Positions 1,141 to 40,636 of a stretch of 64,000 nucleotides of DNA are shown here, piece by piece. The position numbers and the translations under genes are program-made. Positions within the stretch are counted from its first letter, which is position 1; each line of letters starts with the position of its first letter. The notes below the pieces were generated by a model. It did no database searches. It was given only the letters and a program-made list of their open reading frames with translations, and was not told where the DNA came from. Source of the stretch: Thermoanaerobacterium sp. RBIITD (GTDB lineage Bacteria > Bacillota > Thermoanaerobacteria > Thermoanaerobacterales > Thermoanaerobacteraceae); NCBI RefSeq assembly GCF_900205865.1, contig NZ_LT906662.1, positions 2,617,411-2,681,410 on the forward strand. Direction: 5' to 3'.

Positions 1141-2502
1141 ATGAAGAAAAACGATGAAATAATTACAACTATACAGGATATGGATTTTGATGGATACGGA
1201 TTATCATATGTTGATAATAAAATGATAAAAGTTAAAGGCGTGGTGGCAGGACAAAAAGCCAAAGTAAAAATAAAGCGGATAAAAAATGATATAGCCGAGG
1301 CTAATTTAATTGATATTATAGAAAAATCACCTTTAGAACATGATGATGTCTGCCAACATTTTGGTGAATGTGGTGGCTGTACATATTTAAATGTGAATTA
1401 TAATGTTCAACTAAAAATAAAAGAAGGTATTGTAAAAAAACTCCTAGATGAAGCAGGCATTGATGGTTATGAATTTCTTGGTGTAGAAGGAAGTCCAAAT
1501 GTATTTGCATACAGAAATAAGATGGAGTATACATTTGGAAAAGATAATAATGGTAATTTAAAATTGGGGTTACACAAAAAAGGCAGATTTTATGATATAG
1601 TAACGACAAAGGACTGCAGAATAGTCGACAATGATTTTGCAAAATGCATCGATTTAGTGCTCAACTATGCGGAAAAGTATAATCTTCCAGTCTACAATGG
1701 TAAAACACATGAAGGCTATCTAAGACACATGGTTGTCAGAAAAGCTGCTAAGTCAGGCGAGCTTTTAGTGAACATTGTTACAACATCTCAAATTTACCAT
1801 GACTTTTTAGAATTAGTAGAGATACTTAAAAGGGCCGATTTTGAAGGCAAACTTGTCGGTATATTACATACTATAAATGACAGTTTGTCTGATGCTGTAA
1901 TATGTGAGAAACTTATAGTATTATATGGAAGAGACTATTTTATAGAAGAGATACTTGGATTAAAATTTAAGATAAGCGCCTTCTCATTTTTTCAGACAAA
2001 TTCCAAAGGTGCCGAAAAACTATATAGCATAGCAAGAGAATTTGCCGGTGACCTATCACAAAAAGTTGTATTTGACCTCTACTGTGGAACAGGTACTATT
2101 GGGATCGTCATGGCACCACTTGCCAAAAAAGTAATAGGCATAGAACTCATAAAAGAAGCAGTAGATGCCGCAAGAGAAAATGCCAATCTGAATAGAATTA
2201 ATAATTGTGTATTCATACCTGGCGATGTAGCACAAAAATTAAAGGAAATTAGCGAGAGCCCTGATGTCGTAATATTAGATCCACCAAGACCTGGTGTAAA
2301 TCCAAAGGCTATTATGGATGTCGTAAATTTTGATCCAGAGACAATCGTGTATGTCTCATGTAACCCTGTATCACTTGTAAGAGATTTAAAAATGCTAACA
2401 CAGAGGCAGTACAAAGTAGAAAAGGTCAAGTGCATGGACATGTTTCCCCATACTTATCACGTTGAGTGCGTGGTATTGATGACAAATGTAAAAAACGGAT
2501 GA
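1141..2502 (+). CDS. rlmD: 23S rRNA (uracil-C5)-methyltransferase, RlmD/TrmA (RumA) family
   Basis: A 453-residue class I methyltransferase. An N-terminal TRAM-like domain (residues about 1-60) is followed by the [4Fe-4S] Cys set C71-X5-C77-X2-C80 with a fourth Cys near 160 (TTKDC). The SAM-binding motif is FDLYCGTGTIGI, and the catalytic VSCNP motif lies near the C-terminus. It places a methyl group on a uridine C5 of 23S rRNA (U1939 or U747 type; Firmicute paralogues vary) in the cytoplasm. Length and motif order are those of the family. Single gene with its own promoter; exact target nucleotide not predictable. It is the last AT-rich core gene before the GC-richer island. Confidence 0.92.
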   Translation: MKKNDEIITTIQDMDFDGYGLSYVDNKMIKVKGVVAGQKAKVKIKRIKNDIAEANLIDIIEKSPLEHDDVCQHFGECGGCTYLNVNYNVQLKIKEGIVKKLLDEAGIDGYEFLGVEGSPNVFAYRNKMEYTFGKDNNGNLKLGLHKKGRFYDIVTTKDCRIVDNDFAKCIDLVLNYAEKYNLPVYNGKTHEGYLRHMVVRKAAKSGELLVNIVTTSQIYHDFLELVEILKRADFEGKLVGILHTINDSLSDAVICEKLIVLYGRDYFIEEILGLKFKISAFSFFQTNSKGAEKLYSIAREFAGDLSQKVVFDLYCGTGTIGIVMAPLAKKVIGIELIKEAVDAARENANLNRINNCVFIPGDVAQKLKEISESPDVVILDPPRPGVNPKAIMDVVNFDPETIVYVSCNPVSLVRDLKMLTQRQYKVEKVKCMDMFPHTYHVECVVLMTNVKNG

Positions 2503-2520
2503 GAGACTGAAAAACGGCTT

Positions 2521-2600
2521 AAATACAGGGTTTTCTGGTGTTTTGCCATCTGCCGAAAATGTGTTTTTTGGTGGTAGAGATACTGGAAAGCCCTGTATTT
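2521..2600. repeat. Long imperfect hairpin at the left edge of the foreign island
   Basis: Left arm 2521-2539 (AAATACAGGGTTTTCTGGT) and right arm 2582-2600 (ACTGGAAAGCCCTGTATTT) are complementary over 19 nt with few mismatches, around a 42-nt loop. The stretch 2503-2771 holds no credible gene and base composition becomes GC-richer here. It could be a decayed element end or a structured RNA; I do not recognise it. Confidence 0.5.
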
Positions 2601-2771
2601 TTGTTTGTTCGACTGTATGAGGAAACACATCCACAGACTTTCGGTGCGGCTTTTGGCGGGCGGGGTTGTGTTGACGGAAAAGACGGAGTTTGAAATGGTT
2701 TGATGTGTTCGTGGGAACATGTCTATGGGAACTTGCATAATTTTAGTTCCACTTTATATTAAAGCCAACGT

Positions 2772-3107
2772 TCAATTTTGGCTTTTTACAATTTTCTGAT
2801 ACTCTACTCCCCATGTTTCCATTGCTTTGATAATTGGACGCATGCTTTCGCCCAATTCACTTAAGGCGTATTCTACATGGGGCGGCACTTCCGGGTACAC
2901 AGTGCGAATAATAATTCCATCTGCTTCCATAGACCTCAAGCTATCCGTTAGTACCTTTTGACTGATACCAGGAATGGTTTTTCGCAGTTCGTTAAAGCGC
3001 CAAGGGCGCTGAAGCAAATTTCGCAAGATCAGCAGTTTCCACTTACTGCCTATCAACTGAACCGTGGTCGATACAGGACATTCAGGCAATTCTTCTTTTG
3101 TCAGCAT
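2772..3107 (-). CDS. HxlR-family winged-helix transcriptional regulator
   Basis: 111 residues. The N-terminal Cys (ECPVSTTVQLIGSKWKLLIL) and the wHTH segment RPWRFNELRKTIPGISQKVL are diagnostic of HxlR/MarR-like regulators (COG1733), ending with the usual ALSELGESMRPII dimer helix. Cys9-type residues in this family often sense thiol-reactive or redox signals. The gene has an AGGAGA ribosome site and is transcribed away from the precursor-peptide gene. A perfect palindrome lies directly downstream of its own -10 box, so autoregulation is likely and control of the divergent peptide operon is plausible. Confidence 0.93.
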   Translation of the reverse strand: MLTKEELPECPVSTTVQLIGSKWKLLILRNLLQRPWRFNELRKTIPGISQKVLTDSLRSMEADGIIIRTVYPEVPPHVEYALSELGESMRPIIKAMETWGVEYQKIVKSQN

Positions 3108-3132
3108 CGTATCATCTCCTTTATAAGTCCAG

Positions 3133-3153
3133 ATTTGAATGTTACATTCAAAT
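3133..3153. promoter_or_regulatory. Perfect 21-bp palindrome, probable HxlR operator
   Basis: ATTTGAATGT (3133-3142), one base, then ACATTCAAAT (3144-3153): 10-bp perfect arms. It overlaps the end of the -10 box and the transcription start of the hxlR promoter, as expected for an autorepressor site, and sits 25 bp from the hxlR start codon. Confidence 0.8.
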
Positions 3154-3180
3154 TATAATATAAGATAACGATTAAGACAA
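3152..3180 (-). promoter_or_regulatory. Promoter of the HxlR regulator gene
   Basis: On the minus strand TTGTCT (3180-3175), a 17-bp spacer, and TATAAT (3157-3152). Near-consensus sigma-A spacing. The operator palindrome begins within the -10 hexamer. Confidence 0.75.
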
Positions 3181-3228
3181 GTGGGTTATAAAAAGGTGAC
3201 TAAGTAACAGATTTGTGCGTACTTTTTT

Positions 3229-3256
3229 TTAGACAAAGCAGAAGTTAAAATATAAT
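3229..3256 (+). promoter_or_regulatory. Promoter of the ACGX-peptide operon
   Basis: TTAGAC (3229-3234), 16-bp spacer, TATAAT (3251-3256). Upstream, 3195-3209 (GGTGACTAAGTAACA) is a weak dyad that might be a second regulator contact. The leader is about 40 nt and carries GGAGGT (3292-3297) 8 nt before the ATG. Confidence 0.65.
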
Positions 3257-3305
3257 TGCGAACAAGTAAAGGGTTCGTAAAATCCAAAAATGGAGGTAAT
3301 ACACT

Positions 3306-3509
3306 ATGGCACTTTCTAATCTGTTTGGATGGAACAAAAAAGAGGCGGCTTCTACTTGTGGTTCTGCTTGCGGAGCATCCGATAAGCCTGCTGAAGCTCC
3401 CGCTGCTTGTGGTGCTACCGATGCTCCTGCTGCCTGCGGCGCTGCTGACAAGCCGGAAGAAAAACCTACCGCTTGCGGTTCTGCCTGCGGCGCTGGCGAC
3501 AACAAATAA
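3306..3509 (+). CDS. ACGX-repeat RiPP precursor peptide
   Basis: A 67-residue peptide with an N-terminal leader (MALSNLFGWNKKEAAS) and a low-complexity Ala/Gly/Pro core in which Cys occurs only in CG motifs (TCGS, ACGA, ACGA, ACGA, ACGS, ACGA). Cys residues are 18, 22, 35, 44, 57 and 61. This is the ACGX-repeat peptide family (the group called SelenoBiotic when Cys is replaced by selenocysteine), whose members sit beside a dedicated radical SAM maturase, as here. All six positions are TGT/TGC and there is no in-frame TGA, so this is the non-seleno form. Product structure and bioactivity are unknown. The strong GGAGGT site suits a highly translated precursor. Confidence 0.9.
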   Translation: MALSNLFGWNKKEAASTCGSACGASDKPAEAPAACGATDAPAACGAADKPEEKPTACGSACGAGDNK

Positions 3510-3530
3510 TCCAGCCACCACGCCAACACA

Positions 3531-3562
3531 TCCCCGGCATAACTGGTCTTGCCGGGGACTTT
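3531..3562 (+). terminator. Hairpin between precursor and maturase (partial terminator or processing site)
   Basis: TCCCCGGCA (3531-3539) pairs perfectly with TGCCGGGGA (3550-3558) around a 10-nt loop, followed by CTTTTAAAA. The U-tract is short, so read-through is expected. Such a hairpin lets the precursor be made in excess of the maturase encoded 50 nt later. Confidence 0.7.
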
Positions 3563-3610
3563 TAAAATCATTCTGGCAACTGCCAGTTTTCATATAAAGA
3601 GAGGTAATCA

Positions 3611-4648
3611 ATGATGAAACAATATTTTGCTTTTCAGTGGCACATCACTGACGAGTGCGATCAGCGGTGTAAACATTGTTATATCTTTTCGGAAGATCAT
3701 GGCAAACATCTGGACTCCATGAACTGGGAGCAGATGGTGGACGTAGTGGGCAACTGCTGTGATATGTGCGAAATGTACGATCGGCTTCCCTATTTCTATA
3801 TCACCGGCGGCGATCCAATCCTGCATCCTGATTTCTGGCGGCTGCTTGGCCTGCTGAAAAAAAGGCACATCCCTTTTACTATCCTCGGCAACCCGTTCCA
3901 TCTGAATGACGAGGTATGCAAAAGGTTGAAAGAATACGGATGTCAGAAATACCAGCTCTCCCTTGATGGGATGCGGGAAACCCATGACTGGTTCCGTAAG
4001 CCCGGCTCCTTTGATTGCACCCTTGAAAAAATCGACTGCATTAAAAAGGCTGGTATCCGCTCAGTCATCATGACTACGGTATCTGGAAAAAACATCAAGG
4101 AAATTCCGGATATTATTGACACCGTTATTGCGCATAAGGTGGATGTGTTCGCTTTTGCGCGGTACTGCCCGACCAGCGAGGAAAAGGACACCGGCATGGC
4201 CCCGCAGGAATACCGGGAATTGCTGGACACCTGCTATCAGAAATTCCAGAAATATGAAGCCGAAGGCTGCCAAACCTACTTTAATCGGAAAGACCACCTT
4301 TGGACGCTCTATGAATACGAAAAAGGCATTTTCAAAATCCCGGAGGATGCACAGGAGGGTATGATCTACGGCGGCTGCAACTGCGGCAACTGCCATTTGA
4401 CCATCCTGCCCACCGGCGATCTGTACGCCTGCCGTCGCTTTGAAAGCAAGGTAGGCAATGTGTTTGAAGATCGGATTGCCGATGTGTGGGTATGCGACCG
4501 CATGGAAGCCTACCGGGACTATACAAAATTCAAAAAATGTTCCAAATGCGAATTGCTGGCTTGGTGCCGGGGATGCCCCGCCGTTACTTACGGTACAACC
4601 GGAGATTTTTACGAGGCTGACCCGCAATGCTGGAAGGAGGTTAGATAA
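3611..4648 (+). CDS. Radical SAM/SPASM peptide maturase (ACGX/SelenoBiotic family)
   Basis: 345 residues. The radical SAM motif C16-X3-C20-X2-C23 (CDQRCKHCY) sits near the N-terminus. GGDP follows in the SAM fold. The C-terminal SPASM region (about 250-340) carries ten Cys including GGCNCGNC, CSKC and CRGC, enough for auxiliary Fe-S clusters. Family members install crosslinks or other radical modifications on Cys-bearing peptides; the substrate is almost certainly the peptide encoded 101 bp upstream. The chemistry (thioether versus other) cannot be read from sequence. RBS GAGAGGT; its stop overlaps the next ATG (TAATG). GC-rich codon use contrasts with flanking core genes. Confidence 0.92.
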   Translation: MMKQYFAFQWHITDECDQRCKHCYIFSEDHGKHLDSMNWEQMVDVVGNCCDMCEMYDRLPYFYITGGDPILHPDFWRLLGLLKKRHIPFTILGNPFHLNDEVCKRLKEYGCQKYQLSLDGMRETHDWFRKPGSFDCTLEKIDCIKKAGIRSVIMTTVSGKNIKEIPDIIDTVIAHKVDVFAFARYCPTSEEKDTGMAPQEYRELLDTCYQKFQKYEAEGCQTYFNRKDHLWTLYEYEKGIFKIPEDAQEGMIYGGCNCGNCHLTILPTGDLYACRRFESKVGNVFEDRIADVWVCDRMEAYRDYTKFKKCSKCELLAWCRGCPAVTYGTTGDFYEADPQCWKEVR

Positions 4649-5226
4649 TGGAATTGCTGGATTTAATTAAGAAAAGAAGGTCTATTCGTAAATATCAAGA
4701 TAGGCAGATACCGAAAGAGGACCTGGAAAAAATCATCGAAGCAGGTCTCTATGCACCGAATGCGGGTGGAGGGCAGCGAACCTTCATCTGCGGTGTTCAT
4801 AGCAAAGAGTTGACAGAAACTATCGGAAAGCTGAATATCGCCCATTTTGATAAGAGCAAGCTGGTCGGCTCCTATGTCTCTAAAGAGCAGCCGAGTATTA
4901 TTGATGACCCCACTATTAAAAATGGTTTTTATGGCGCGCCTACAGTCTGCGTGGTATTTGCCCAGAAAAACTTTTTATACAGCATCCCCGATGCGTTCTG
5001 CTGTGCAGAGAACATGGTATTAGAGGCTACTGAACTGGGGATTTCCTCCTGCATCATTGCAAGAGCCGAAGAAACCTTTGAAAATGAATTGGGAAAAAAG
5101 CTATTAAAGGATTGGCAAATTCCTGAAAACTACATTGCGAGATGCTTTGTCGTGCTCGGTTATTGCGACGGGGCATATCCCGCTGCCAAACCGAGAAAAG
5201 ACGGAAGAAGCCGAATCATTGAATAG
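4648..5226 (+). CDS. Nitroreductase-family flavoprotein 1
   Basis: 192 residues of the FMN-dependent nitroreductase fold: N-terminal IKKRRSIRKYQDRQIP (phosphate contact), APNAGGGQRTF, and GISSCIIARA near the C-terminus. Translationally coupled to the radical SAM gene through TAATG. Enzymes of this superfamily reduce quinones or nitro groups or, in peptide clusters, oxidise backbone units (as in azoline dehydrogenation). A tailoring or redox-recycling role for the peptide pathway is inferred from position only. Confidence 0.88.
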   Translation: MELLDLIKKRRSIRKYQDRQIPKEDLEKIIEAGLYAPNAGGGQRTFICGVHSKELTETIGKLNIAHFDKSKLVGSYVSKEQPSIIDDPTIKNGFYGAPTVCVVFAQKNFLYSIPDAFCCAENMVLEATELGISSCIIARAEETFENELGKKLLKDWQIPENYIARCFVVLGYCDGAYPAAKPRKDGRSRIIE

Positions 5227-5246
5227 AGAAAGGCTGGAGAACGGTA

Positions 5247-5861
5247 ATGGACTTTATGGATATATCCAAAATGCGGGTTACGGTGCGTAAGTTTGCACAG
5301 ATGCCTGTGGAGCAGGATAAAATTGAAAAGATATTGGAGGCCGGGCGGTGGGCTCCTACTGCGGTCAATTATCAGCCGCAGCGGATTTTGGTGCTGAATA
5401 CACCTGAAAATCTGGCAAAGGTCAAATCATTCTGTACCTTTGAGTATGATAAGAAATATGCAGACTTGGCAGAGGAATGTGATGATAAAGAACACGGCAA
5501 AAACGTGTATTATTATGGTGCTCCGCTGGTGCTGTTCGTTTGCTATGATAAGACTGCCTGTTGGCAACACCCGCAGAGCAGCAAGAGCAGCGGGGCAACC
5601 GATGCGACGATTGTCGCTACCCACATGATGCTGGAAGCCGCCAGCATTGGCCTTGGAACAGTTTGGATCAGCTACTTTGACGAGAACAAAGCCAAAGAAC
5701 TGCTTAATCTTCCTGAAAGCTGGCAGCCGGTATGTATGCTTTACGTCGGATACCCAGCGGAGGATTTCAAGCCCAATCCGAATATGTCTGGGAAACGGTT
5801 TCCGATTGAAAAGACCTGTTTCTATAATGATATAAATGACAGAAAACGCCATGAAGTGTGA
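5247..5861 (+). CDS. Nitroreductase-family flavoprotein 2
   Basis: 204 residues. MDISKMRVTVRKFAQMPV and RWAPTAVNYQPQ are the FMN-binding N-terminal motifs; EAASIGLGTVWISYF is the second conserved block. It lies 20 bp after the first nitroreductase, from which it is clearly diverged, so the two may form a heterodimer or act on different substrates. A rather Cys- and Asp-rich insert (AEECDDKEHGK) is notable. Part of the same operon; no promoter seen between. Confidence 0.88.
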   Translation: MDFMDISKMRVTVRKFAQMPVEQDKIEKILEAGRWAPTAVNYQPQRILVLNTPENLAKVKSFCTFEYDKKYADLAEECDDKEHGKNVYYYGAPLVLFVCYDKTACWQHPQSSKSSGATDATIVATHMMLEAASIGLGTVWISYFDENKAKELLNLPESWQPVCMLYVGYPAEDFKPNPNMSGKRFPIEKTCFYNDINDRKRHEV

Positions 5862-5876
5862 AAGGAGGCGCTAATC

Positions 5877-6389
5877 ATGGAGAATTATGAGGAACGGTTG
5901 ATTGCCGCAAAAAAAGCGATTGAAAATGCGGACTCTATTCTGATCGGTGCAGGGGCCGGGCTGTCCGCCGCGGCTGGGCTGACCTACTCAGGCAAACGGT
6001 TCACGGACAATTTTTCCGATTTCATTGAGAAATACGGTATCGAAGATATGTACTCGTCCACCTTTTACCCGTTTCAGACACAGGAGGAATTGTGGGCGCA
6101 TTGGGCAAGGCATATTGATGTGAACCGCTATTCCCAGACTGCTACAAAGCTTTACATGGATTTGCTCCGGCTGGTTCAGAAAAAGGAATATTTTGTCATT
6201 ACGACCAACGTGGAAAGCCAATTTGAGAAAGATGGTTTTCCAAAAGATAAAATCTTTGAGGTGCAGGGCAACTACGCCTATTTACAATGCGCCAAAGGCT
6301 GCCACAACAAGCTATATTACAATGAAGACTTAATAAAAGCAATGCTGGCACAAACAAAGGATTGTAAAATTCCGTCTTACCTTGTGTAA
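5877..6389 (+). pseudogene. Sirtuin-like NAD-dependent deacylase, truncated by IS21 insertion
   Basis: The reading frame gives 170 residues: NAD motif LIGAGAGLSAAAGLTYSG, then FVITTNVESQFEKDGF and the first half of the zinc site (QCAKGC). Host sequence ends at 6384 where the IS21 terminal repeat starts; the last codons and stop come from the IS. The second zinc Cys pair and the C-terminal NAD/substrate segment are missing and do not reappear after the element, so the protein should be inactive. The AGAGLSAAAGL loop, without the usual GIPDFR, resembles the macrodomain-linked or atypical sirtuins. Position, 15 bp after a nitroreductase, suggests it belonged to the RiPP operon. Confidence 0.88.
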
Positions 6390-6443: not shown

Positions 6444-7208
6444 CTAAGATGCATTCGAAGAACTGATAAAATATTCAACTTTTGATTTTAATCTATATGA
6501 AGGTCCCTTTATTGATATAACATGCGAATGATGAAGTAATCTACCTAATATTGCATTGGCTAACGTTGCTGATCCAAATACTTCTGCCCAATTAGAAAAT
6601 GGCATATTTGTTGTAATAATTGTACTATGCTTTTCATACCTTTTAGATATTAGCTGGAAAAATATATTTGAAGCATCTGTGTCTATTGGTAAATACCCTA
6701 CTTCGTCTATTATTAACACCTTATATTTTGAAAAATGCTTTAATCGGATTTCTAAACGGTTTTCTGCTAAAGCCTTTTTTAATTGAGTCATCAATTCTTG
6801 AAAATGAACGAAATATGTAGAATATCTGTGTTTTGCACATTCTATCCCTATGGCGGTGGCAAGATGTGTCTTGCCTATTCCTGGGGTCCCTACAAACAAT
6901 ATATTTTCGTTATTTTCTACAAATCTTAAACTTTTTAAATCAAGAATTTCTTGTTTGTTTATGCTTGGTTGAAATTCAAAATCAAAATCATCAAGTTCTT
7001 TTAAAAAAGGGAAGTTTGCTACTTTGACACATGCAAGTATTGCTTTTTCTTGTTTTGATTTTATTTCTAAATTGCTTAGTTCATATAGAGCATCTATAAC
7101 ACTTTTTTCTCCTGATTTAATCATGTTTAAATATGTATCTATATTATTTTTTATGTTATTTAATCCAAGTTCTCCTAAATTGTTTAATAGCTTAGTATAG
7201 TTACTCAC
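6444..7208 (-). CDS. istB: IstB-like AAA+ ATPase of IS21
   Basis: 254 residues with Walker A GTPGIGKTHLATAIG and Walker B VLIIDEVGYLPI, the signature of IstB/DnaC-like transposition helper ATPases. IstB selects and delivers target DNA to IstA. Complete and of normal length; 8 bp after istA on the minus strand. Confidence 0.95.
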   Translation of the reverse strand: MSNYTKLLNNLGELGLNNIKNNIDTYLNMIKSGEKSVIDALYELSNLEIKSKQEKAILACVKVANFPFLKELDDFDFEFQPSINKQEILDLKSLRFVENNENILFVGTPGIGKTHLATAIGIECAKHRYSTYFVHFQELMTQLKKALAENRLEIRLKHFSKYKVLIIDEVGYLPIDTDASNIFFQLISKRYEKHSTIITTNMPFSNWAEVFGSATLANAILGRLLHHSHVISIKGPSYRLKSKVEYFISSSNAS

Positions 7209-7216
7209 ATTTTCAC

Positions 7217-8403
7217 CTACCTATGCAATAATTTATCCAATTCGTTAAGATTATTTGTGCATATTTGTTCAATGTCCTCTTTGTTTTTGATAAGATTTTC
7301 CATTAATTCTTTATAATGAGATTCGTGATAATTTATCTTTTTATCACTTAATATATGGACAGATATCAAGTCTGTGTTAAAATATACATGTAACTCATTT
7401 TCTACTGTTTTAAGAGTTACAGTTTTATTTATTGAGTATCTACTACCTTTGTAATATATCATAGAATCTTTATTGACAGTTGCTTTTTGTTCGAAGTTCA
7501 TATAACTTTCTATGATATCATTACTTGGCAGAGGAGATAGATACTCCTTTTCTTTTTGGAATAATATTATCGGTTGTATCCCTGTTGACTGATTTGTAGA
7601 TTGATTAACTTTTTTGTTTATTTCACCAATTATCTTTATTAAATCTTCTTCATTCTCAAATTCACCATTGTATGGCAGTAGCCAGTCAATAAATTTATTA
7701 GATGATTCCACCTTTCCTTTGGTATATGAGTGTCTTGGCTTACATAAGCGTATCTTAAAGTCAAAATCATTTGCAAATGCTTTTATTTTATTATTTATCT
7801 TCCTCCCCTCGTTTGTTATATCAACTATTGTTTTCATATTGTCAAAAAGTATTTCATCTGGAACGCCTCCTGTAGCTTTAAAAGCGTTTATCAAGCATTC
7901 AATTACATCTTGTTGTGTTTTTGCTTTCCTATATTCAAAATAGCAATATCTTGAATATCCAAGCTTATAGTTAAGAACATTAAAAATGAATTCTTCTCCA
8001 TATTTAGAAACTAATTTTATCTCTTCTTTCCAATCTACCTGTGCTTGCTTTCCCGCAGGAGTTTCAAATCGTGGATGACCACTTACTTTTTTAGCAGGTT
8101 TCAAGCCTTTTCGCTTTACATATTTGTTGAAATTAGAATATGTTCCAATATCATAATTTTTAGAAACAAAGTATTCGTATACTCCCTTTACCGTAACCCC
8201 CTTTATTTCAAGTTTTGCTTTTATTTCATCATAGTATTTGTCTAATTTGTTTGTTTGTTTCTTGTTTTTGGTTTGCCTTCATATCCTTCATAATACTTCT
8301 TAACAGTTCTTCTATCTATTCCATATTCTCTTGCTAGCTTTGAAAAATTAGGTTTTATCTCCATAGCCTTTAATATGCTAATTTGACCTAATAGATTTTT
8401 CAT
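7217..8403 (-). pseudogene. istA: IstA transposase of IS21, frameshifted at a CAAA repeat
   Basis: Starts at ATG 8403 behind AGGAGGG with an HTH (LAREYGIDRRTVKKYYEGYEG). The frame stops at TAG 8242-8244 just after a (CAAA)3 tract at about 8247-8259. The remainder continues in the -1 frame (KLDKYYDEIKAKLEIKGVTV), through the rve DDE core (QAQVDWKEEIKLV, LFDNMKT, KGKVESSNKFI), to 7217. Gaining one CAAA unit would restore one open frame of about 390 residues. Hence slippage mutation is the simplest reading; a programmed shift is less likely because IS21 transposases are normally read in one frame. Confidence 0.8.
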
Positions 8404-8597
8404 TGCTGGTATCCCTCCTACGAACAGAAGGATACCAAATTTATGTACAAATTTGTACATTTTTATTTTCCACTTTTCGTACATTCTTATTTTATCATTT
8501 TCAGCTGAGTAATAAACAAGGATTTCCTTGACTTTTTGTGCATTCAGAGTGATTGATGTACATGCAAGGACGAAAAACACAGAAAGGAGAGGTTCAG

Positions 8598-8887: not shown

Positions 8888-9367
8888 ATGGCGACCAGAG
8901 GAAGAAAACCAAAGCCAACAGCCTTTAAGGTACTCGAGGGAAATCCAGGTAAGCGTTCACTTAACATGAATGAGCCAAAACCAGAGAAAAAGGCTCCGAA
9001 GTGCCCTTCCTGGCTTGAGCCGGAGGCAAAGAAGGAGTGGCGCAGAATGTCCAAGCAGCTTGAGAAACTGGGGGTGCTGACACAGGTGGATGCCGCAGCC
9101 TTTGCAGGCTATTGCCAGGCCTATGCACGCTGGAAGGAGGCGGAGGAATTTCTCTCCAAGCACGGTACCATTTTTAAGACACCGTCGGGATATATCCAGC
9201 AGGTGCCGCAGGTATCCATTGCCCAGACCTACCTTAAGATAATGAGGGATTTCTGTTCCGAATTTGGACTTACGCCTTCCAGCCGCTCCAGAATTGCTGT
9301 TGATAATGCCGTAAAAGACAGCGCCGACCCCATGGAAAAGCTGCTTATGAGGAGGCATAACGGGTAA
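8888..9367 (+). CDS. terS: Phage terminase small subunit, P27 family
   Basis: 159 residues starting MATRGRKPKPTAFKVLEGNPGK, the typical basic N-terminus of P27-type small terminases, then PSWLEPEAKKEWRRM and QTYLKIMRDFCSEFGLTPSSRSR. It recognises phage DNA for packaging. The gene appears intact; RBS GAGGGAGGTG. Its TAA overlaps the ATG of the large subunit (TAATG at 9365-9369). Confidence 0.93.
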   Translation: MATRGRKPKPTAFKVLEGNPGKRSLNMNEPKPEKKAPKCPSWLEPEAKKEWRRMSKQLEKLGVLTQVDAAAFAGYCQAYARWKEAEEFLSKHGTIFKTPSGYIQQVPQVSIAQTYLKIMRDFCSEFGLTPSSRSRIAVDNAVKDSADPMEKLLMRRHNG

Positions 9368-10900
9368 TGTATGACGATAGGAAAGCGCAGCACGCGGTGG
9401 ACTTTGAAGCACACCAAGGGTATCTGGTATGGGGTGCCCTTTGAACTCCTCCCCTGGCAGGACAAAATCATCCGGGATATTTTTGGAACGGTCAAGGAAA
9501 ACGGGTATAGGCAATATAACACCGCGTATGTGGAAATACCGAAAAAGTAAGGTAAAAGTGAGCTGGCTGCAGCGGTGGCTTTCTACCTCACCTGCGCTGA
9601 TGGTGAATGGGGTGCGGAAGTTTACGATTGTGCTTCTGACAGGGCAGCAGGCCTCCATTGTTTTTGATGTTGCGGTGGATATGGTGGAGCAGTGTCCGGC
9701 CCTGAAAAAGAGAATCAGATCGGTACTCTTTCAGAAACGGCTAGTATATACACCGCTCAACAGCTTTTATCAGGTACTCTCGGCTGAAGCCTATACCAAG
9801 CATGGACTGAATGTGCATGGTGTAGTGTTTGATGAACTGCATGCCCAGCCAACAAGGGAACTGTACGATGTTATGACAAAAGTTCCGGTGATGACCGGAT
9901 GCAGCCATTGTTTTTCCTCATAACGACTGCAGGGACTGACCGCAACAGCATCTGCTGGGAGATCCACCAAAAGGCGGATGATATTTTAAAGGGGCGGAAA
10001 ATCGACCCTACTTTTTATCCTGTCATCTACGGCATTGATGATAATGACGACTGGACAGATGAAAGAAACTGGTACAAAGCTAACCCATCCTTGGGTGTGA
10101 CGGTGGATATAGATAAGATGAGGGATGCCTTTAACAGCGCCAAAGATAATCCAGCGGATGAAAATCTGTTCCGGCAGCTTCGTTTGAACCAATGGGTGAA
10201 GCAGTCGGTCAGATGGATGCAGATGGACAAATGGGATGCTTGCACTTTTCCCGTTAATGCGGAGGAACTCCGAGGGCAAATTTGCTATGGGGGCTTAGAC
10301 TTATCCTCTACGACAGACATAACTGCCTTCGTGCTGGTATTTCCACCGGAGGCGGAGGAGGACAAGTATCAGGTGCTACCCTTTTTCTGGATTCCGGAGG
10401 AGAACCTTCAGATTCGGGTGCGGCGTGACTATGTGCCCTATGATGTGTGGGAAAGACAGGGATATCTTAAAACCACTGAGGGTAACGTAGTGCACTATGG
10501 CTTTATCGAAGCCTTTATTGAAGAACTGGGCACCAAATATAACATCAAAGAAATTGCCTTTGACCGCTGGGGGGCGGTCCAGATGGTGCAAAACCTTGAG
10601 GACATGGGCTTTACGGTAGTGCCCTTCGGGCAAGGGTATAAGGATATGTCACCGCCCACCAAGGAACTTATGAAGCTGGTATTGGAAGGAAAAATCGCTC
10701 ATGGCGGACACCCGGTGCTGCGCAGGATGATGGACAATGTCTATGTTAAAACCGACCCGGCAGGCAATATCAAGCCGGACAAAGAAAAAAGCACTGAGCG
10801 TGTTGACGGTGCTGTTGCGCTTATAATGGCTCTCGATAGAGCAGTTAGGCATCAGAAAAGAGGGTCTGTGTATGACAACAGAGGGATTCTTGTGCTATAG
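9367..10900 (+). pseudogene. terL: Phage terminase large subunit, broken
   Basis: The start MYDDRKAQHAVDF at 9367 shifts frame within about 40 nt into KHTKGIWYGVPFELLPWQD. A TAA at 9548-9550 then falls inside the Walker A motif (IPKK, stop, GKSELAA). An extra base near 9648 and another shift near 9885 follow. The C-terminal 333 residues (9899-10900) are open and hold the nuclease domain, with LITTAGTDRN and YGGLDLSSTTDITAF. At least four lesions make it a clear pseudogene of an HK97-type packaging motor. Confidence 0.93.
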
Positions 10901-10905
10901 AATTT

Positions 10906-11319
10906 TTATTTGTTAATTTCCTCTATTTTTCGAACAACCCTCATGGTAGCATTTCCAACATATTTGTAAACAGTGGCTGATGTTACAAATTCAGCAGAGC
11001 AGGATTTTGGCATGTCTTTTTGCGTATCGGGCTGATAGCCAAAAGGTTCTAAGATAGTTTTTACCATCCGTCCCAGTGCCTGTTTTGTGAAATTATCAGT
11101 TAAATCAAAAGTAGGTGATGGGAGATTTTTATAATAATTTTCTACTTCTTGAATGCAGGCAGATAAAGCTGGTTTGTCTGCTTCGGTTGCGTCTATCATT
11201 GCGATAATGTTATCGTCCTTTGACAGGATGTTTTCAAAAATATGGATTGCTTCCGGATTGCCGTCATATTTTTTACAGTTTGGGTTTTGGGCAATAAAAT
11301 CCCTAAATGATGCTTTCAT
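10906..11319 (-). CDS. Hypothetical protein, 137 aa, opposite to the prophage
   Basis: Starts MKASFRDFIAQNPNCKKYDG behind TAGGAGGG on the minus strand; soluble, without motifs I recognise. The middle has EVENYYKNLPSPTFDLTDNF, the end SATVYKYVGNATMRVVRKIEEIN. Intact reading frame and antisense orientation between terminase and a toxin-antitoxin pair make it a cargo (moron) gene candidate. Function unknown; the N-terminal FRDFIAQNPN is reminiscent of small prophage proteins but not diagnostic. Confidence 0.7.
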   Translation of the reverse strand: MKASFRDFIAQNPNCKKYDGNPEAIHIFENILSKDDNIIAMIDATEADKPALSACIQEVENYYKNLPSPTFDLTDNFTKQALGRMVKTILEPFGYQPDTQKDMPKSCSAEFVTSATVYKYVGNATMRVVRKIEEINK

Positions 11320-11460
11320 AGGTTATCCCTCCTAAAAAAGATTTTTACATATGTATTATGACATATGTAAAAATAAATGTCAACACTATAGAAAAACTTT
11401 AATTTATTTTTTATTGAAGATTTGAGGCTTCAGGTATAAATATTCTAAGTCCCTTCATCG

Positions 11461-11506
11461 TTGCTGTTGTATTTTACGAAGAATATTGCTATAATAATAA
11501 CAGCAA
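11461..11506 (+). promoter_or_regulatory. Toxin-antitoxin promoter flanked by an inverted repeat
   Basis: TTGTAT (11467-11472), 17-bp spacer, TATAAT (11490-11495). The promoter is bracketed by the 8-bp arms TTGCTGTT (11461-11468) and AACAGCAA (11499-11506), perfect complements. Such a layout fits autorepression by the antitoxin or TA complex. AAAGGGAG precedes the ATG at 11526. Confidence 0.65.
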
Positions 11507-11525
11507 AAGGAAAGGGAGATTTATT

Positions 11526-11780
11526 ATGCCTAACATTAAGCCGATTTCCGATTTAAGGAATTACAATGAAGTGTTGCGCAGCATAGAGGAGGGTTCACCG
11601 GTCTTTTTAACAAAAAATGGCCGTGGCCGCTATGTTGTTATGGATATGCAGGAATATGAAAAAATGCAGGCAAAATTAAAATTGCTTACTGAACTTGCTA
11701 AAGGTGAAAAGGCAGGGCAAGAAAATGGATGGCTAACCATTGATGAACTAGAAGCATCCCTGGGGGTAACGAATGGTTAA
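11526..11780 (+). CDS. Antitoxin, Phd/YefM family
   Basis: 84 residues: KPISDLRNYNEVLRSIEEGS is the Phd/YefM DNA-binding N-terminus, then PVFLTKNGRGRYVVMDMQEYEKMQ, the family's conserved beta strand and helix. The acidic C-terminus (WLTIDELEASLGV) would wrap the toxin. It overlaps the toxin gene by 8 bp. Intact, and preceded by a good promoter. Confidence 0.93.
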   Translation: MPNIKPISDLRNYNEVLRSIEEGSPVFLTKNGRGRYVVMDMQEYEKMQAKLKLLTELAKGEKAGQENGWLTIDELEASLGVTNG

Positions 11781-12105
11781 TCTTAAAATTTCGCCCAAAG
11801 CGCAAAAGGATATGCTGGAGATAAAAGAATATATTTCCGAGGAATTAGGTAATCCTACAGCAGCAACAAATGTGCTGGCCAAAATCACCAAACGATTCAG
11901 AGATCTTATAGAATTCCCGTTGATTGAAGCGCCCTTGTCCTCTGTTATTAAAATTGAAACAAGCTATCGTTACCTTGTATGTGGGCAATATACAGCTTTT
12001 TACCGTTATGAAAATGATACTGTATATGTGGACAGAGTGCTATATGGCAGACGAGATTTTATGCGAATCCTCTTTGGGGATGTTGCAGAGGAAGAAGACA
12101 ACTGA
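11773..12105 (+). CDS. Toxin, RelE/ParE family
   Basis: 110 residues: LKISPKAQKDMLEIKEYISEELGNP (ParE-type helical start), then IETSYRYLVCGQYTAFYRYENDTVYVDRVLYGRRDFMRIL, the conserved RelE/ParE C-terminal strand pair with Arg/Tyr. Either an mRNA interferase or a gyrase poison; the RRDFMRIL end and helical N-terminus favour ParE/RelE-like plasmid-stabilisation proteins. Intact within a dead prophage, so selection (addiction) likely kept the pair. Confidence 0.92.
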   Translation: MVNLKISPKAQKDMLEIKEYISEELGNPTAATNVLAKITKRFRDLIEFPLIEAPLSSVIKIETSYRYLVCGQYTAFYRYENDTVYVDRVLYGRRDFMRILFGDVAEEEDN

Positions 12106-12134
12106 TTATCAAATATAAAATTTTGATTGGTAAG

Positions 12135-12160
12135 AGCATCGCTTAGACGGTGCTTTTTTT
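12135..12160 (+). terminator. Terminator after the toxin-antitoxin operon
   Basis: AGCATCG (12135-12141) pairs with CGGTGCT (12148-12154), then TTTTTT. One G-U pair. Confidence 0.7.
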
Positions 12161-12186
12161 ATGCCTTTTTTTCAGGAGGAACGAGA

Positions 12187-13509
12187 ATGAAACTATCGAT
12201 ATTATCAAGATTTTTTCAACCAAGAGCAGGTCCTAACGACAGGCGGGACAGTCCCATAAGTAACAAGCTTAAGGCATTCCTTCTGGGAGAGGATATCGGT
12301 ACAGGTATGGTTTCTATTGCAGGTGTCAGGGTAAATGAGGAAACCGCAATGCGCGTAACTGGCGTTTATGCCTGTGTCCGAGTGATTGCCGAAACGGTGG
12401 CCAGCCTGCCCCTGCCCTTGTATAGAAGGCATGACCGGGGCAAGGAAAAGGTTACTACCCATCCTTTATATTCAATACTTCAAGATATGCCCAATCCGGA
12501 GATGACCAGCTTTACTTTCCGGGAGGTGCTAATGACCCAGCTTTTATTGTGGGGAAACGCTTATGCGCAGATAGAACGGGGTAAGGGCGGACAGGTGATG
12601 GAACTATGGCCGTTTTCGCCCGCAGGCATGGAGATCATCCGGGATGAGAAAACCAAGCAGCTGGTTTACAGGTATACAGAAGGTATGAAAACCACTGAGT
12701 ACAAGCCTGAACAAATATTCCATATTCCGGGTTTAGGCTTTGACGGGGTGAAAGGTTTATCTCCAATTGCCATGGCGAGAGAAGCCATCGGGCTTGCGCT
12801 GGCGACCGAAGAATTCGGCGCGAGGTTTTTCGGCAACAGGGCGCGCCCGGGAGGAATCCTTGAGCATCCAGGGGTGGTAAAGGACCCGGAGAAGCTGAGA
12901 AAATCTTGGGAGGAGGTATATAAAGGGCTTCAGAACTCCCACAAGATAGCAGTTCTTGAGGAGGGCATGAAATACCATGAAATCGGCATACTGCCGGAGG
13001 ATGCACAGTTTCTTGAAACCCGCAAATTCCAGCTTAACGAAATTTGCAGGCTTTTTAGGGTACCACCCCACCTTGTAGGAGACTTGGAGAGGGCCACCTT
13101 CTCAAATATCGAGCATCAGAGCATCGACTTTGTGGTGCATACCATCAGGCCATGGCTGGTGCGCTGGGAACAGGCTATTATAAAAAGCCTGCTGCTGCCC
13201 GAGGAAAGGAAGCTGTATTTTCCCAGATTCAACGTTGACGGACTTTTAAGAGGCGACTTCAAAACAAGGATGGAAGGCTATGCCATTGGCCGCCAGAACG
13301 GCTGGTAAAGCGCCAACGACATCCGCGAGTTGGAGGATATGAACCCTATACCTGAGGAAGCAGGCGGCGACCTTTACCTTGTGAACGGCAATATGCTGCC
13401 AGTCTCTCTGGTAGGTAGTAAAAAAGAGGGAGGTGAAAACTTAAATAGACAAACAGAAAAGCAAGCAGGCGCAAACCAGCGCAGCTGGAGAGAAGAACGG
13501 TATCCATGA
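12187..13509 (+). pseudogene. Phage portal protein (HK97 family) with an in-frame stop
   Basis: Start MKLSILSRFFQPR at 12187, placed by AGGAGGAACGAGA. Motifs include RVTGVYACVRVIAETVASLPLPLY and FRVPPHLVGDLERATFSN. TAA at 13306-13308 interrupts NGW/SANDIRELEDMNPIPEEAGG; the same frame then runs to TGA 13507-13509. The stop removes about the last 67 residues, which in portal proteins form the crown/C-terminal part. The product of the first 373 residues could still be made but is unlikely to build a working portal. Confidence 0.92.
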
Positions 13510-14090
13510 CGGAGCTCAGGGTACTTAGCGAGGGTGATGAAGAAGCGACAAAGCCCATCATTGAGGGCCATGCCGCTGCTTTCAACCAGTGGTAGGAGGA
13601 GCTTGGCGGCGTGTTTCCCTTCCGGGAAAAGGTAATGCCGGGTGCCTTCAAGGAGACCATTCAGGTGGATGACATCCGGGCGCTGTTTAATCATGATCCA
13701 AACTATGTGCTGGGCAGGAACCGTTCAGGCACCCTTGAACTCAAGGAAACGCAAAAGGGGCTGATGGTAAGGATAACACCTTCGGAAACGCAGCGGGCCC
13801 GAGACCTTTTAGTCAGCATAGACCGAGGAGACATTTCGCAAATGTCCTTCGGTTTTTTAGTTATTGAGGACCGTTGGGGCACCGAGGACGGCGGTGATAT
13901 CAGGGAGCTTCACAAGGTAAAGCTTTTTGACGTTTCTCCGGTAACCTTTCCTGTATACCCCCAGACCGATGTCGGCGTGAGAGGCGCCCTTTTAAGCTAT
14001 GAGAGGCATTTAAAGGAATTGTTCGAGGCAGCAGAGTCTCGCGCAAGGCAGCGGTTGGAACTGAGAAAACGGAAAATAGAATTACTTTGA
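13506..14090 (+). pseudogene. Prohead protease (HK97 family) with an in-frame stop
   Basis: ATG at 13506 overlaps the portal stop (ATGA). The frame MTELRVLSEGDEEATKPIIEG meets TAG at codon 30 (13593-13595), then continues EELGGVFPFREKVMPGAF, FNHDPNYVLGR (catalytic His) and DLLVSIDRGDISQMSFGF (catalytic Ser region). Re-initiation at an internal ATG could yield a shortened protein. In healthy phages it matures the capsid. Confidence 0.9.
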
Positions 14091-14107
14091 TAGGAGGTAT
14101 TCTAAAC

Positions 14108-15393
14108 ATGAACAAAATTAAAGAAATGGAAGCACGTAAAAAGGATGCAAGGCTTAAGGCCCTTGCCATCTTTGAAAAGGCTCAGGCTGAAGGTCGCTTT
14201 CTGACTGAGGAAGAGGAAAAGCAGGTAAGGCAGCTTGAGGAGGAAATGAAAAGGTGGGACGACACAATTGCGCACACCAGGGCGCTGATGGAGGAAGAGG
14301 AGCAGCCGGAGGAAAGGGACATGGAGCCTGCAAGGCCCAATCCCAAGGCGGCGGTAGCTTTAGGAGAGCATCGCTTTGCCAGCTTCGGCGAGCAGATGTT
14401 GGCTGCGTACAGGGCGGCAGCACCAGATGGTCGCATTGACCCAAGGCTTACCACAAGAGCCGCCAGCGGTCTTTCCGAGAGTGTGCCCTCTGACAACGGT
14501 TTTCTGGTGCAGCAAGACTTTGTCACTGAGCTTTTAAAGCGTACCTATGAGACGGGGGTTCTTGCTTCAAGAGTCAGCAAGATTCCGCTTTCCACCAATG
14601 CTAACGGGCTGAAAATCAATGGCGTAGACAAGACAAGCCGCGCCAACGGCGCACGCTGGGGCGGCATTCAGACCTACTGGGAGAATGAAGCCGACCAGCT
14701 TATCGTGTCAAAGCCAAAATTCAGAGTGATAGATTTGTTCCTGAAGAAATTGACCGGCCTTTGCTACGCAACCGACGAGCTCCTGCAGGATGCGGCAGCC
14801 TTGGAGAGTGTACTCCGTCAGGGCTTTGCCGAGGAATTCGGCTTTAAGATAGATGATGCCATCCTGACAGGTACCGGTACCGGGCAGCCCCTTGGCATTC
14901 TGAATAGCGATGTCTTGGTTGAAGGTACTGAAGGAAAGCGGGCAGACTGAGCTCTTAAAAGTAGAAAACCTATTCAATGTGGACAAGACTCTGGGGTAGA
15001 AGTAGGACAAATGCTGTGTGGTATATCAATCAGGAGATTGAGCCGCTCTTATTTACCATGAAAATCGGTAATGTGCCGGTATATATCCCGGCAGGTGGAC
15101 TTTCGGAAGCACCTTATGCGACACTTTTCGGAAGACCGGTAGTGCCTCTTGAACAGTGCTCGGCAGAAGGTGAGGTGGGAGACATCATCCTGGCGGAAAT
15201 GTCCCAGTACCTTTTAATCGACAAGGGCGGTATCAATGCGGCTTCCTCCATCCATGTAAGGTTCCTGTATGACAAGAACGTTTACAGGTTTATTTACAGG
15301 GTAGACGGGCAGTCCATCTGGAACAAGCCCTTGCAGCCATATAAGGACAGCGCGTCAGTATCGCCCTTTGTGGCGCTTGCCAGCAGAAAATAA
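14108..15393 (+). pseudogene. Major capsid protein (HK97 fold), frameshifted
   Basis: Starts MNKIKEMEARKKDARLKAL behind AGGAGG; residues 1-100 are the coiled-coil scaffold (delta) domain. The capsid domain begins near PDGRIDPRLTTRAASGLSES and includes VLASRVSKIPLSTNANGLKI. The frame is lost near 14940 (GTEGKRAD, stop), and after two shifts within about 40 nt the remainder continues to 15393 (SRTNAVWYINQEIEPLL ... FVALASRK). Two single-base lesions separate otherwise full-length halves. Confidence 0.92.
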
Positions 15394-39925: not shown

Positions 39926-40087
39926 AGCAATCCTCCTCCAATACATATTATGCAGAAAAATATATATAGTTCATATATGTAAATTTAAAATATCATAAGA
40001 CATATATTTGTAAAATCTAAATAAATTGAATAAAAACGATAATTTGATAAAAAATATAGACGAATTCTTTCAGAAAGGGTGTTTATA

Positions 40088-40636
40088 GTGAAAAACAATA
40101 TGACTGCAGCAAATTTACGTTCCGCATATGGCGGAGAAAGTATGGCATATCAAAGATATAAGGTATGGAGTAAAAAAGCAATGGATGAAGGCTTTAAAAA
40201 TGTTTATAGATTATTTAACGCCATTGCATATGCTGAGGAGGTACATGCTAGTAATCACTTTAAAGCACATAAAGACTTAGAAGGAGATTTTTTAGTTCCA
40301 TCTATGGCTGGATTCGGAATAGGTAATACTTCACTAAACCTTGATAAAGCCATAAGCGGTGAACTTTTTGAAGTCAATGAAATGTATGCTACGTACATAA
40401 AAGTTGCTGAATTTCAACAAGAGGAAGGTGCAAAAAAGACTTTTACATGGGCAAGAGAAGCAGAAAAAATTCATGCAGACCTATATAAAGAAGCAAAATT
40501 AGCAGTTGATTCAGGGAAGGATGTAAGCTTTAACGAAGTACATATATGTAGTGTATGTGGCTATACTACTGTAGGACCAATACCTGATAAATGCCCGGTT
40601 TGTGGCGCTGATACGACAAGATTTGTAACCTTTTAA
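40088..40636 (+). CDS. rbr: Rubrerythrin
   Basis: 182 residues from GTG 40088 (AAAGGG 9 nt upstream). The ferritin-like di-iron part (GGESMAYQRYKVW, AIAYAEEVHASNHF, EMYATYIKVAEFQQEEGA, EAEKIHADLY) is followed by a C-terminal rubredoxin-like FeS4 domain (CSVCGYTTVGPIPDKCPVCG). It reduces hydrogen peroxide in anaerobes with electrons from ferredoxin or rubredoxin. Often under PerR; perR is 11 kb away here. Confidence 0.96.
   Translation: MKNNMTAANLRSAYGGESMAYQRYKVWSKKAMDEGFKNVYRLFNAIAYAEEVHASNHFKAHKDLEGDFLVPSMAGFGIGNTSLNLDKAISGELFEVNEMYATYIKVAEFQQEEGAKKTFTWAREAEKIHADLYKEAKLAVDSGKDVSFNEVHICSVCGYTTVGPIPDKCPVCGADTTRFVTF

Follow-up and report, generated by a model that had tools for sequence, protein, structure and literature searches.

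The 64,000-nucleotide stretch of Thermoanaerobacterium sp. RBIITD analysed here (contig NZ_LT906662.1, positions 2,617,411 to 2,681,410; hereafter the window) carries, between positions 2772 and 6389, a gene cassette in which a Cys-Gly-rich ACGX-repeat peptide and its radical SAM/SPASM maturase are flanked by a divergent HxlR-type regulator, two nitroreductase-family flavoenzymes and a sirtuin gene. We lean, with modest confidence, towards reading this cassette as a mobile, HxlR-controlled stress operon directed against thiol-reactive compounds (quinones, nitro compounds, other electrophiles and disulfide stress), to which an optional ADP-ribosylation arm can be added. Defence against electrophile or disulfide stress is the simplest joint reading because a thiol-type regulator, a thiol peptide with its maturase, a reductase and an optional ADP-ribosylation pair recur.

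The ACGX cassette and its recurrent partners

All six open reading frames (ORFs) that an earlier note on this DNA had described are present at the coordinates it gave, and the family models agree with its order of divergent HxlR, precursor, maturase, two nitroreductases and sirtuin. The HxlR/DUF24 regulator gene (2772–3107, minus strand; PF01638, 112.9 bits) is divergent from the operon, which begins with the 67-residue ACGX-repeat precursor containing six Cys-Gly motifs (3306–3509, plus strand; TIGR04341, 83.7 bits with a cut-off of 28) and continues on the same strand with the acgM-type maturase (3611–4648; TIGR04340, 627 bits with a cut-off of 400), two nitroreductase-family flavoenzymes, the first a recurrent partner (4648–5226; PF00881, 83.7 bits) and the second a rare one (5247–5861; PF00881, 112.8 bits), and a Sir2-family ORF (5877–6389) that tblastn with an intact homologue identifies as the 5′ part of a gene for a class M sirtuin (SirTM). 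From maturase to sirtuin the genes are tightly packed, with a TAATG overlap at 4646–4650 followed by gaps of 20 and 15 nt, as the earlier note had it, but the coupling it claimed does not extend to the precursor, which is separated from the maturase by 101 nt holding a strong hairpin (3531–3558, plus strand; folding z −2.57). This hairpin perhaps sets the ratio of precursor to maturase expression.

By these scores the precursor and maturase are, as claimed, members of the ACGX system (acgA, TIGR04341; acgM, TIGR04340), and the plasmid record of Roseburia sp. 831b, which names the genes acgA and acgM, has them in this order too. The SelenoBiotic label also applied to them has to be dropped: the SbtM model (TIGR04082) is the next best for the maturase, at 185.5 bits, below its cut-off of 350. 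Five other matches to the maturase in the 3.40-Mb, single-contig genome have just 24–34% identity, so the cassette maturase is the only ACGX maturase of the genome. The two NCBIfam models of the ACGX system describe the peptide and the maturase; to these we add HxlR, the reductase, PNPOx-ferredoxin, SirTM and the zinc macrodomain (Zn-Macro) as partners.

Maturases above the cut-off were found in 9 of 398 genomes sampled across the phylum and in 3 of 61 genomes from closer relatives, the window's own genome being part of both sets. A scan with one genome per species supplied the best 80 of 555 relatives, which were taken together with 13 further regions, three viral contigs and the window, and neighbouring genes were found by phmmer and by hidden Markov models built from the matches. 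Loci were dropped where no full maturase was present (L060, L144, L145), where two shared a contig (L128 with L056), or where the maturase fell below the TIGR04340 cut-off and no partner genes were held (L061, L062). This left 91 loci including the window, whose truncated SirTM is counted as present; the counts below refer to the 83 loci with at least 1.3 kb upstream and the 69 with at least 4.6 kb downstream.

A precursor is found in 75/83 loci, and a divergent HxlR gene in 69/83 within 3 kb and in 61/83 within 1.3 kb. Downstream, nitroreductases are present in 45/69 loci, MDR-type quinone-oxidoreductase-like enzymes in 19/69 and either of the two in 63/69; for two of the MDR examples the best model is PIG3 quinone oxidoreductase, at 156 and 180 bits, both below the cut-off of 296.8. 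PNPOx-ferredoxin proteins (36/69), SirTM (35/69) and macrodomains (27/69) complete the set. When near and far flanks were compared in the 40 full-flank loci, matches numbered 34 against 2 for HxlR, 28 against 0 for the first nitroreductase, 1 against 0 for the second, 9 against 0 for the MDR enzyme, 22 against 1 for PNPOx-ferredoxin, 19 against 0 for SirTM and 15 against 0 for the macrodomain. The recurrence of HxlR, a reductase and a sirtuin beside the maturase, which the earlier note had proposed as a check, is therefore found in many Clostridia, far above the outer flanks, and supports a single pathway. The pair of nitroreductases is not part of that pattern: two occur in 4/69 loci, the window among them, and the MDR enzyme fills the slot in others.

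A complete annotated example is provided by the Roseburia sp. 831b plasmid, where an HxlR gene (PF01638), acgA, acgM and a nitroreductase gene are followed by genes for a 4Fe-4S protein with a PNPOx domain, a protein-ADP-ribose hydrolase, a Sir2 protein and a DUF1848 protein. In the PNPOx-ferredoxin proteins (e.g. L083:7508–8125) the PNPOx-like domain is joined in one protein with a ferredoxin that has two 4Fe-4S motifs. The Methanosphaera plasmid pNP174 (L222) has an HxlR gene, an 85-residue ORF, a maturase in two annotated pieces and a zinc dehydrogenase gene, and no SirTM; the maturase of this methanogenic archaeon is of the ACGX type (63% identity), with BREX genes a few kb off. The 85-residue ORF has no NCBIfam match and is not counted as an ACGX peptide.

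MALSNLFGW-like starts are common to the 81 precursors collected, including that of the window, which contain 2 to 15 CG motifs each, the lowest numbers coming from ORFs that seem cut or frame-shifted. Of all their cysteines, 94% fall in CG motifs, and alanine precedes the motif in 485 of 513 cases. A near-fixed unit in variable copy number looks like a binding or buffering peptide. In an alignment of 11 maturases the CX3CX2C motif and the C-terminal cysteines are conserved, the first cysteine of the motif in 10/11; Pfam at E 1e-3 finds no PqqD-type leader-binding domain, and among solved chains the closest are SkfB (6efn, 5e-14), 5v1q (3.6e-12) and 5wgg (1.5e-11), the last two presumably SuiB and CteB. 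The maturase of L011/L053 reads Arg at the first motif cysteine (ITDERDQRC), so it may be inactive or mis-sequenced, and one genome with an intact maturase has a second, degenerate copy with in-frame TGA codons (L060; G415:C18:3758–4464).

Cys10 is the sole conserved cysteine of the cassette HxlRs (75/75), whose relatives in the PDB are YybR (4a5m), HxlR (7bze) and YodB (5hs7). According to the available part of PMC6943732, HypR, CatR and YodB detect HOCl, quinones and diamide by means of N-terminal cysteines, and the targets of such HxlR-family regulators include HypO and the nitroreductase YodC. The HypR-HypO and YodB-YodC/AzoR1 systems of Bacillus subtilis thus likewise place a DUF24/HxlR redox-cysteine regulator over a nitroreductase or flavin reductase, and the same part of that paper names no ribosomally synthesised and post-translationally modified peptide (RiPP) or sirtuin in them.

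At the hxlR promoter, a promoter-like site at 3180–3152 on the minus strand, lies the perfect palindrome ATTTGAATGT-T-ACATTCAAAT (3133–3153), a possible operator, while the operon is preceded by a sigma-70-like promoter TTTAGA-17-TATAAT (3228–3256, plus strand; 10/12 consensus bases); both promoters are consensus matches only, in a region where the scan found 8 sites with 6.3 expected. Just upstream of the operon promoter is a conserved element, GTGCGTACTT (3215–3224). The 8-mer TGCGTACT occurs in 54/59 hxlR-precursor intergenic regions, and the 10-mer AGTGCGTACT in 39/83 upstream regions, whereas the remaining 1.36 Mb of the loci contain it four times. Its median distance to the start of the precursor, from 37 measurements, is 91 nt. 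The window has TGTGCGTACT at 3214–3223, one base off AGTGCGTACT (T for the first A). HxlR may bind the palindrome or the conserved element. A search of open-licence papers for this element gave only unrelated work among the matches listed.

A class M sirtuin interrupted in the window

The earlier note had listed the sirtuin as a tailoring partner; a role as an ordinary tailoring deacylase is not supported, and the gene is not intact in the window. Its intact counterpart, of 301 residues, is found in L059, the genome of a different family within the same order, and matches the SirTM structure 5A3A at E 1.1e-55 and the macrodomain-bearing 8RSN at 3e-31, other sirtuins following at 3e-4 or weaker. 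All 42 cassette SirTMs with 250 residues or more have Gln in place of the catalytic His (HG to QG), and the window fragment reads EVQGN at this motif. Judged by these matches and motifs the sirtuin of the cassette is of class M, not of the deacetylase type. SirTMs are described, in the available parts of PMC4518038 and PMC11490716, as ADP-ribosyltransferases without appreciable deacylation whose mark is reversed by a zinc macrodomain partner. A macrodomain gene is linked to SirTM in 26 of the 35 SirTM-bearing loci, though none is present in the window, and the zinc-loop residues C116, H121 and C123 are found in 34/34 cassette macrodomains of the relatives. In L059 the sirtuin gene has a DUF5131 gene after it and then the macrodomain gene, whose product matches the known Zn-Macro 8RSI at E 1.6e-76.

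DUF5131 proteins (L059:12537–13172; also L083, L089, L095 and L104) and DUF1848 proteins (L064, L123 and L221:10007–10948) lie near SirTM/macrodomain genes or in the cassette and have, by look, radical-SAM-like cysteine motifs, and a PF04055 protein lies near SirTM/macrodomain genes at L176:9324–10151. These proteins are a possible second link between radical SAM enzymes and SirTM.

The sirtuin ORF of the window has 170 residues, the first part (∼56%) of a protein of ∼300, and corresponds to about residues 5–174 of the intact protein. With the L059 SirTM as query, tblastn covers residues 2–174 of 301 at 92.5% and ends at 6386, and homology to L059 ceases at 6385/6386, where an IS21-family element begins (6385 to ∼8542, minus strand; NF038214, NF033546). 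The ends of the element were placed by eye from a gapped terminal match, the right one approximately; when terminal repeats were searched for without gaps, no pair at these ends was convincing. Its istB (6444–7208, minus strand) has four further match rows elsewhere in the genome, two of them adjacent and all partial; its istA (7217–8542, minus strand) is split over two frames. The portion of SirTM lost in the window contains the second zinc cysteine pair and the ELGVG..NTP stretch, both invariant or nearly so in relatives. A tblastn search over the 64-kb window for the SirTM C-terminus or a macrodomain remnant gave weak matches only (E 0.16 or worse), and the sole macrodomain match of the genome is without the zinc loop. 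With SirTM truncated, no remnant found and the zinc macrodomain absent, the ADP-ribosylation arm has very probably been lost in this strain, while the ORFs for the regulator, the peptide, the maturase and the two flavoenzymes are all intact.

Across the 398 genomes, SirTM matches at 1e-20 occur in 24, of which five are classical (HG) and were left out; among the remaining 19 is G315, whose SirTM is a fragment at a contig edge in which QG was not checked. SirTM is present in 7/9 genomes with an above-cut-off ACGX maturase as compared with 19/398 overall (hypergeometric p 6e-9, relatedness ignored). The two are adjacent in five of these genomes (G000, G067, G220, G315, G337) and on separate contigs in G232 and G326. 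SirTMs without ACGX stand with PNPOx-ferredoxin (L183, L185), with HxlR (L177, L185; L178 at 3.4 kb) or with the macrodomain alone. In the SirTM phylogeny, membership in the cassette has to change 5 times (3 changes are forced). The window/L059 SirTM groups there with the non-cassette L176 and L177, in a starred clade separate from that of most cassette SirTMs, the bootstrap being unsettled. Most simply, this tree means that SirTM entered the cassette more than once, and repeated joining argues for a working link; a single gain of SirTM with later escapes could also account for it.

Transfer and genomic surroundings

L059 shares the cassette at 92.9% DNA identity over 3.9 kb (window 2484–6385), and this identity with the genome of another family, together with the plasmid copies, supports transfer. 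The earlier note had argued for transfer from GC content, and that argument stands in part: the GC of the cassette (0.46) is above that of rlmD (0.342) and of the window beyond 18.1 kb (0.317), but the contrast is not cassette-specific, the decayed phage genes at 8.5–18.1 kb having a GC of 0.464, with an insertion sequence of 0.289 between them and the cassette.

The homology block starts at the 3′ end of rlmD (1141–2502, plus strand; 23S rRNA uracil methyltransferase, TIGR00479, 327.9 bits with a cut-off of 183.55), window 2484 onward corresponding to L059 8337 onward. Window 2458–2693 also matches L059 6698–6933 at 81%, the 3′ segment of rlmD thus being present twice in L059. Besides the window, three of the 91 loci have an rlmD-like gene upstream, namely L059 at a distance of 4.1 kb, L053 at 1.6 kb (where the end of the contig cuts it) and L063 at 8.6 kb. 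The rlmD 3′ end and the next 190 bases, repeated in L059, have by eye a similar counterpart in G229 (L215). The rlmD 3′ end is possibly an integration site used by several elements; within the genus the flanks after rlmD differ between genomes, and no clean empty site was found.

After the IS21 element comes a decayed, GC-rich prophage (8888–15393; terminases, portal, prohead protease and capsid) in which the frames for the large terminase and the capsid seem to be broken. That phages or viruses carry the cassette was considered and rejected: a search of 50,697 phage records with a threshold of E 1e-20 gave no ACGX maturase, and the viral matches are three IMG/VR contigs, two of them partial. 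A rubrerythrin-like gene occurs in the window at 40083–40467, ∼34 kb from the cassette, and in L059 at 4304–4687, ∼4 kb from it (73% DNA identity); its place near the cassette in both genomes may be due to chance.

Function of the cassette

In the stress operon we favour, the HxlR cysteine would sense the stress, upon which the operon would be derepressed or activated. The radical SAM enzyme would modify the Cys-Gly peptide into an intracellular thiol-based carrier or sink, and the nitroreductase or quinone-oxidoreductase-like enzyme would reduce the toxic compound or recycle the peptide. Where it is present, in roughly half of the loci, the SirTM/zinc-macrodomain pair would add ADP-ribose to a component of the system and remove it again. 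The available parts of PMC4518038 and PMC11490716 tie SirTM/Zn-Macro systems to oxidative stress and oxidoreductases.

Several observations weigh against this reading. HxlR regulators serve other functions too, HxlR itself being assigned to aldehyde detoxification (PMC6943732, available part). Transporter genes lie near a few loci (ABC ATPase type 7, MATE type 6; types assigned by look, strands and places mixed). SirTM is not downstream in 34/69 loci, and on the maturase tree it changes state 18 times, 8 of them forced, with 8/500 shuffles as low; since it comes and goes on that tree, SirTM is optional and not essential to the system. Fonticella tunisiensis (L063), the nearest relative after L059, has the MDR enzyme and no SirTM. 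Finally, the counts speak for close relatives, because the best 80 of 555 were taken.

The closest precedent for the sirtuin arm is the extended SirTM/Zn-Macro operon of Staphylococcus and Streptococcus, which consists of GcvH-L, LplA2, SirTM, the macrodomain, OYE and LLM. In both settings a class M sirtuin and a zinc macrodomain stand by flavin or NAD(P)H oxidoreductases, and both contain a small, sulfur-bearing candidate carrier with its modifying enzyme. The ACGX loci differ in having the Cys-Gly peptide and the radical SAM maturase instead of GcvH-L and LplA2 (LplA2 was not searched for) and in being under HxlR control, and the window differs further in its broken SirTM and absent macrodomain. 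GcvH gave no phmmer match near the cassette or SirTM in 15,152 ORFs of 124 loci, in a search whose positive control worked, and the GcvH (PF01597) matches in 26 genomes are never close to SirTM. Outside the GcvH-L operon the target of SirTM/Zn-Macro pairs is called elusive in the available part of PMC11490716. By analogy, the ACGX peptide might replace lipoylated GcvH-L, the maturase LplA2, and the nitroreductase or quinone oxidoreductase OYE/LLM: the maturase would put a sulfur-based group on the Cys-Gly repeats, SirTM would ADP-ribosylate only the mature peptide and thereby keep it off, and the zinc macrodomain would free it when electrophiles trip HxlR. We regard this extension as unlikely, though if true it would place a RiPP under reversible ADP-ribosylation and reveal, for many gut Clostridia, the target that SirTM has so far lacked.

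What opposes the peptide as SirTM target, and leaves the stress operon as such untouched, is co-regulation: the SirTM/zinc-macrodomain pair may merely be one part of an HxlR-type stress regulon, act on another protein (the reductase, the PNPOx/ferredoxin protein or a chromosomal protein) and have no biochemical contact with the peptide. This is a serious contender, to which we give somewhat less than even weight. The studied target in the extended operon, its own carrier protein (PMC4518038, available part), speaks for a target within the system and so against co-regulation, as do the presence of SirTM in 7/9 ACGX genomes, side by side in five, and the more than one SirTM lineage in the cassette. 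It is in keeping with co-regulation that SirTM genes exist without ACGX (L177, L178, L183, L185, or with a macrodomain alone) and that SirTM is patchy on the maturase tree. An aspartate three residues past CG, tried as a SirTM-specific ADP-ribose acceptor, was rejected in that role and likewise favours co-regulation, being equally common in loci without SirTM (97/187 motifs) and with it (103/209).

A precursor beside a radical SAM/SPASM maturase is the usual RiPP cluster layout, and some RiPPs are tailored by flavoenzymes; the cassette might thus produce a secreted RiPP, antimicrobial or signal, tailored by the nitroreductases and sirtuin and switched by HxlR. We think this improbable. Among the neighbour clusters of at least three loci, none for an exporter, protease, peptidase or immunity protein keeps to one position, the reductase slot swaps between nitroreductase and MDR enzyme, and up to 15 near-fixed CG units are more in keeping with a peptide for bulk binding than with a shaped ligand.

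The repeated Cys-Gly units and their tunable copy number are also what a metal-buffering peptide would have, comparable to metallothionein or to the bufferins, which chelate excess metal ions under copper stress (PMC12452194, available part), with the redox genes as side partners. Such a role seems quite improbable here, the regulator being of the HxlR type rather than one of the common metal sensors, and the recurrent neighbours showing no metal transporter. While Sir2 proteins are NADase effectors in several defence systems and the cassette has a mobile setting with a prophage next door in the window, an anti-phage function is very improbable and was set aside for want of PADLOC support (no match for 6/7 proteins, namely SirTM, macrodomain, HxlR and nitroreductases, and weak viperin matches for the maturase, best 54.2 bits), the class M motifs and paired hydrolase pointing instead to reversible signalling and the phage records containing no ACGX maturase.

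We found no open-licence paper linking ACGX to SirTM or SirTM to radical SAM enzymes, and the main text of the SirTM papers PMC4518038 and PMC11490716 does not mention radical SAM or nitroreductase, nor did a text search of the two give any match for HxlR; for ACGX peptides themselves no open-licence paper was found, the same words carrying other meanings among the matches listed. The cassette thus brings two orphan systems, ACGX and SirTM/Zn-Macro, together in one locus, and it gives a short list of candidates for the SirTM target: the peptide, the maturase, the reductase and the PNPOx-ferredoxin. More broadly, it suggests that a ribosomal thiol peptide may be deployed against stress by anaerobes, many of them from animal guts, that carry it on chromosomes and plasmids alike.

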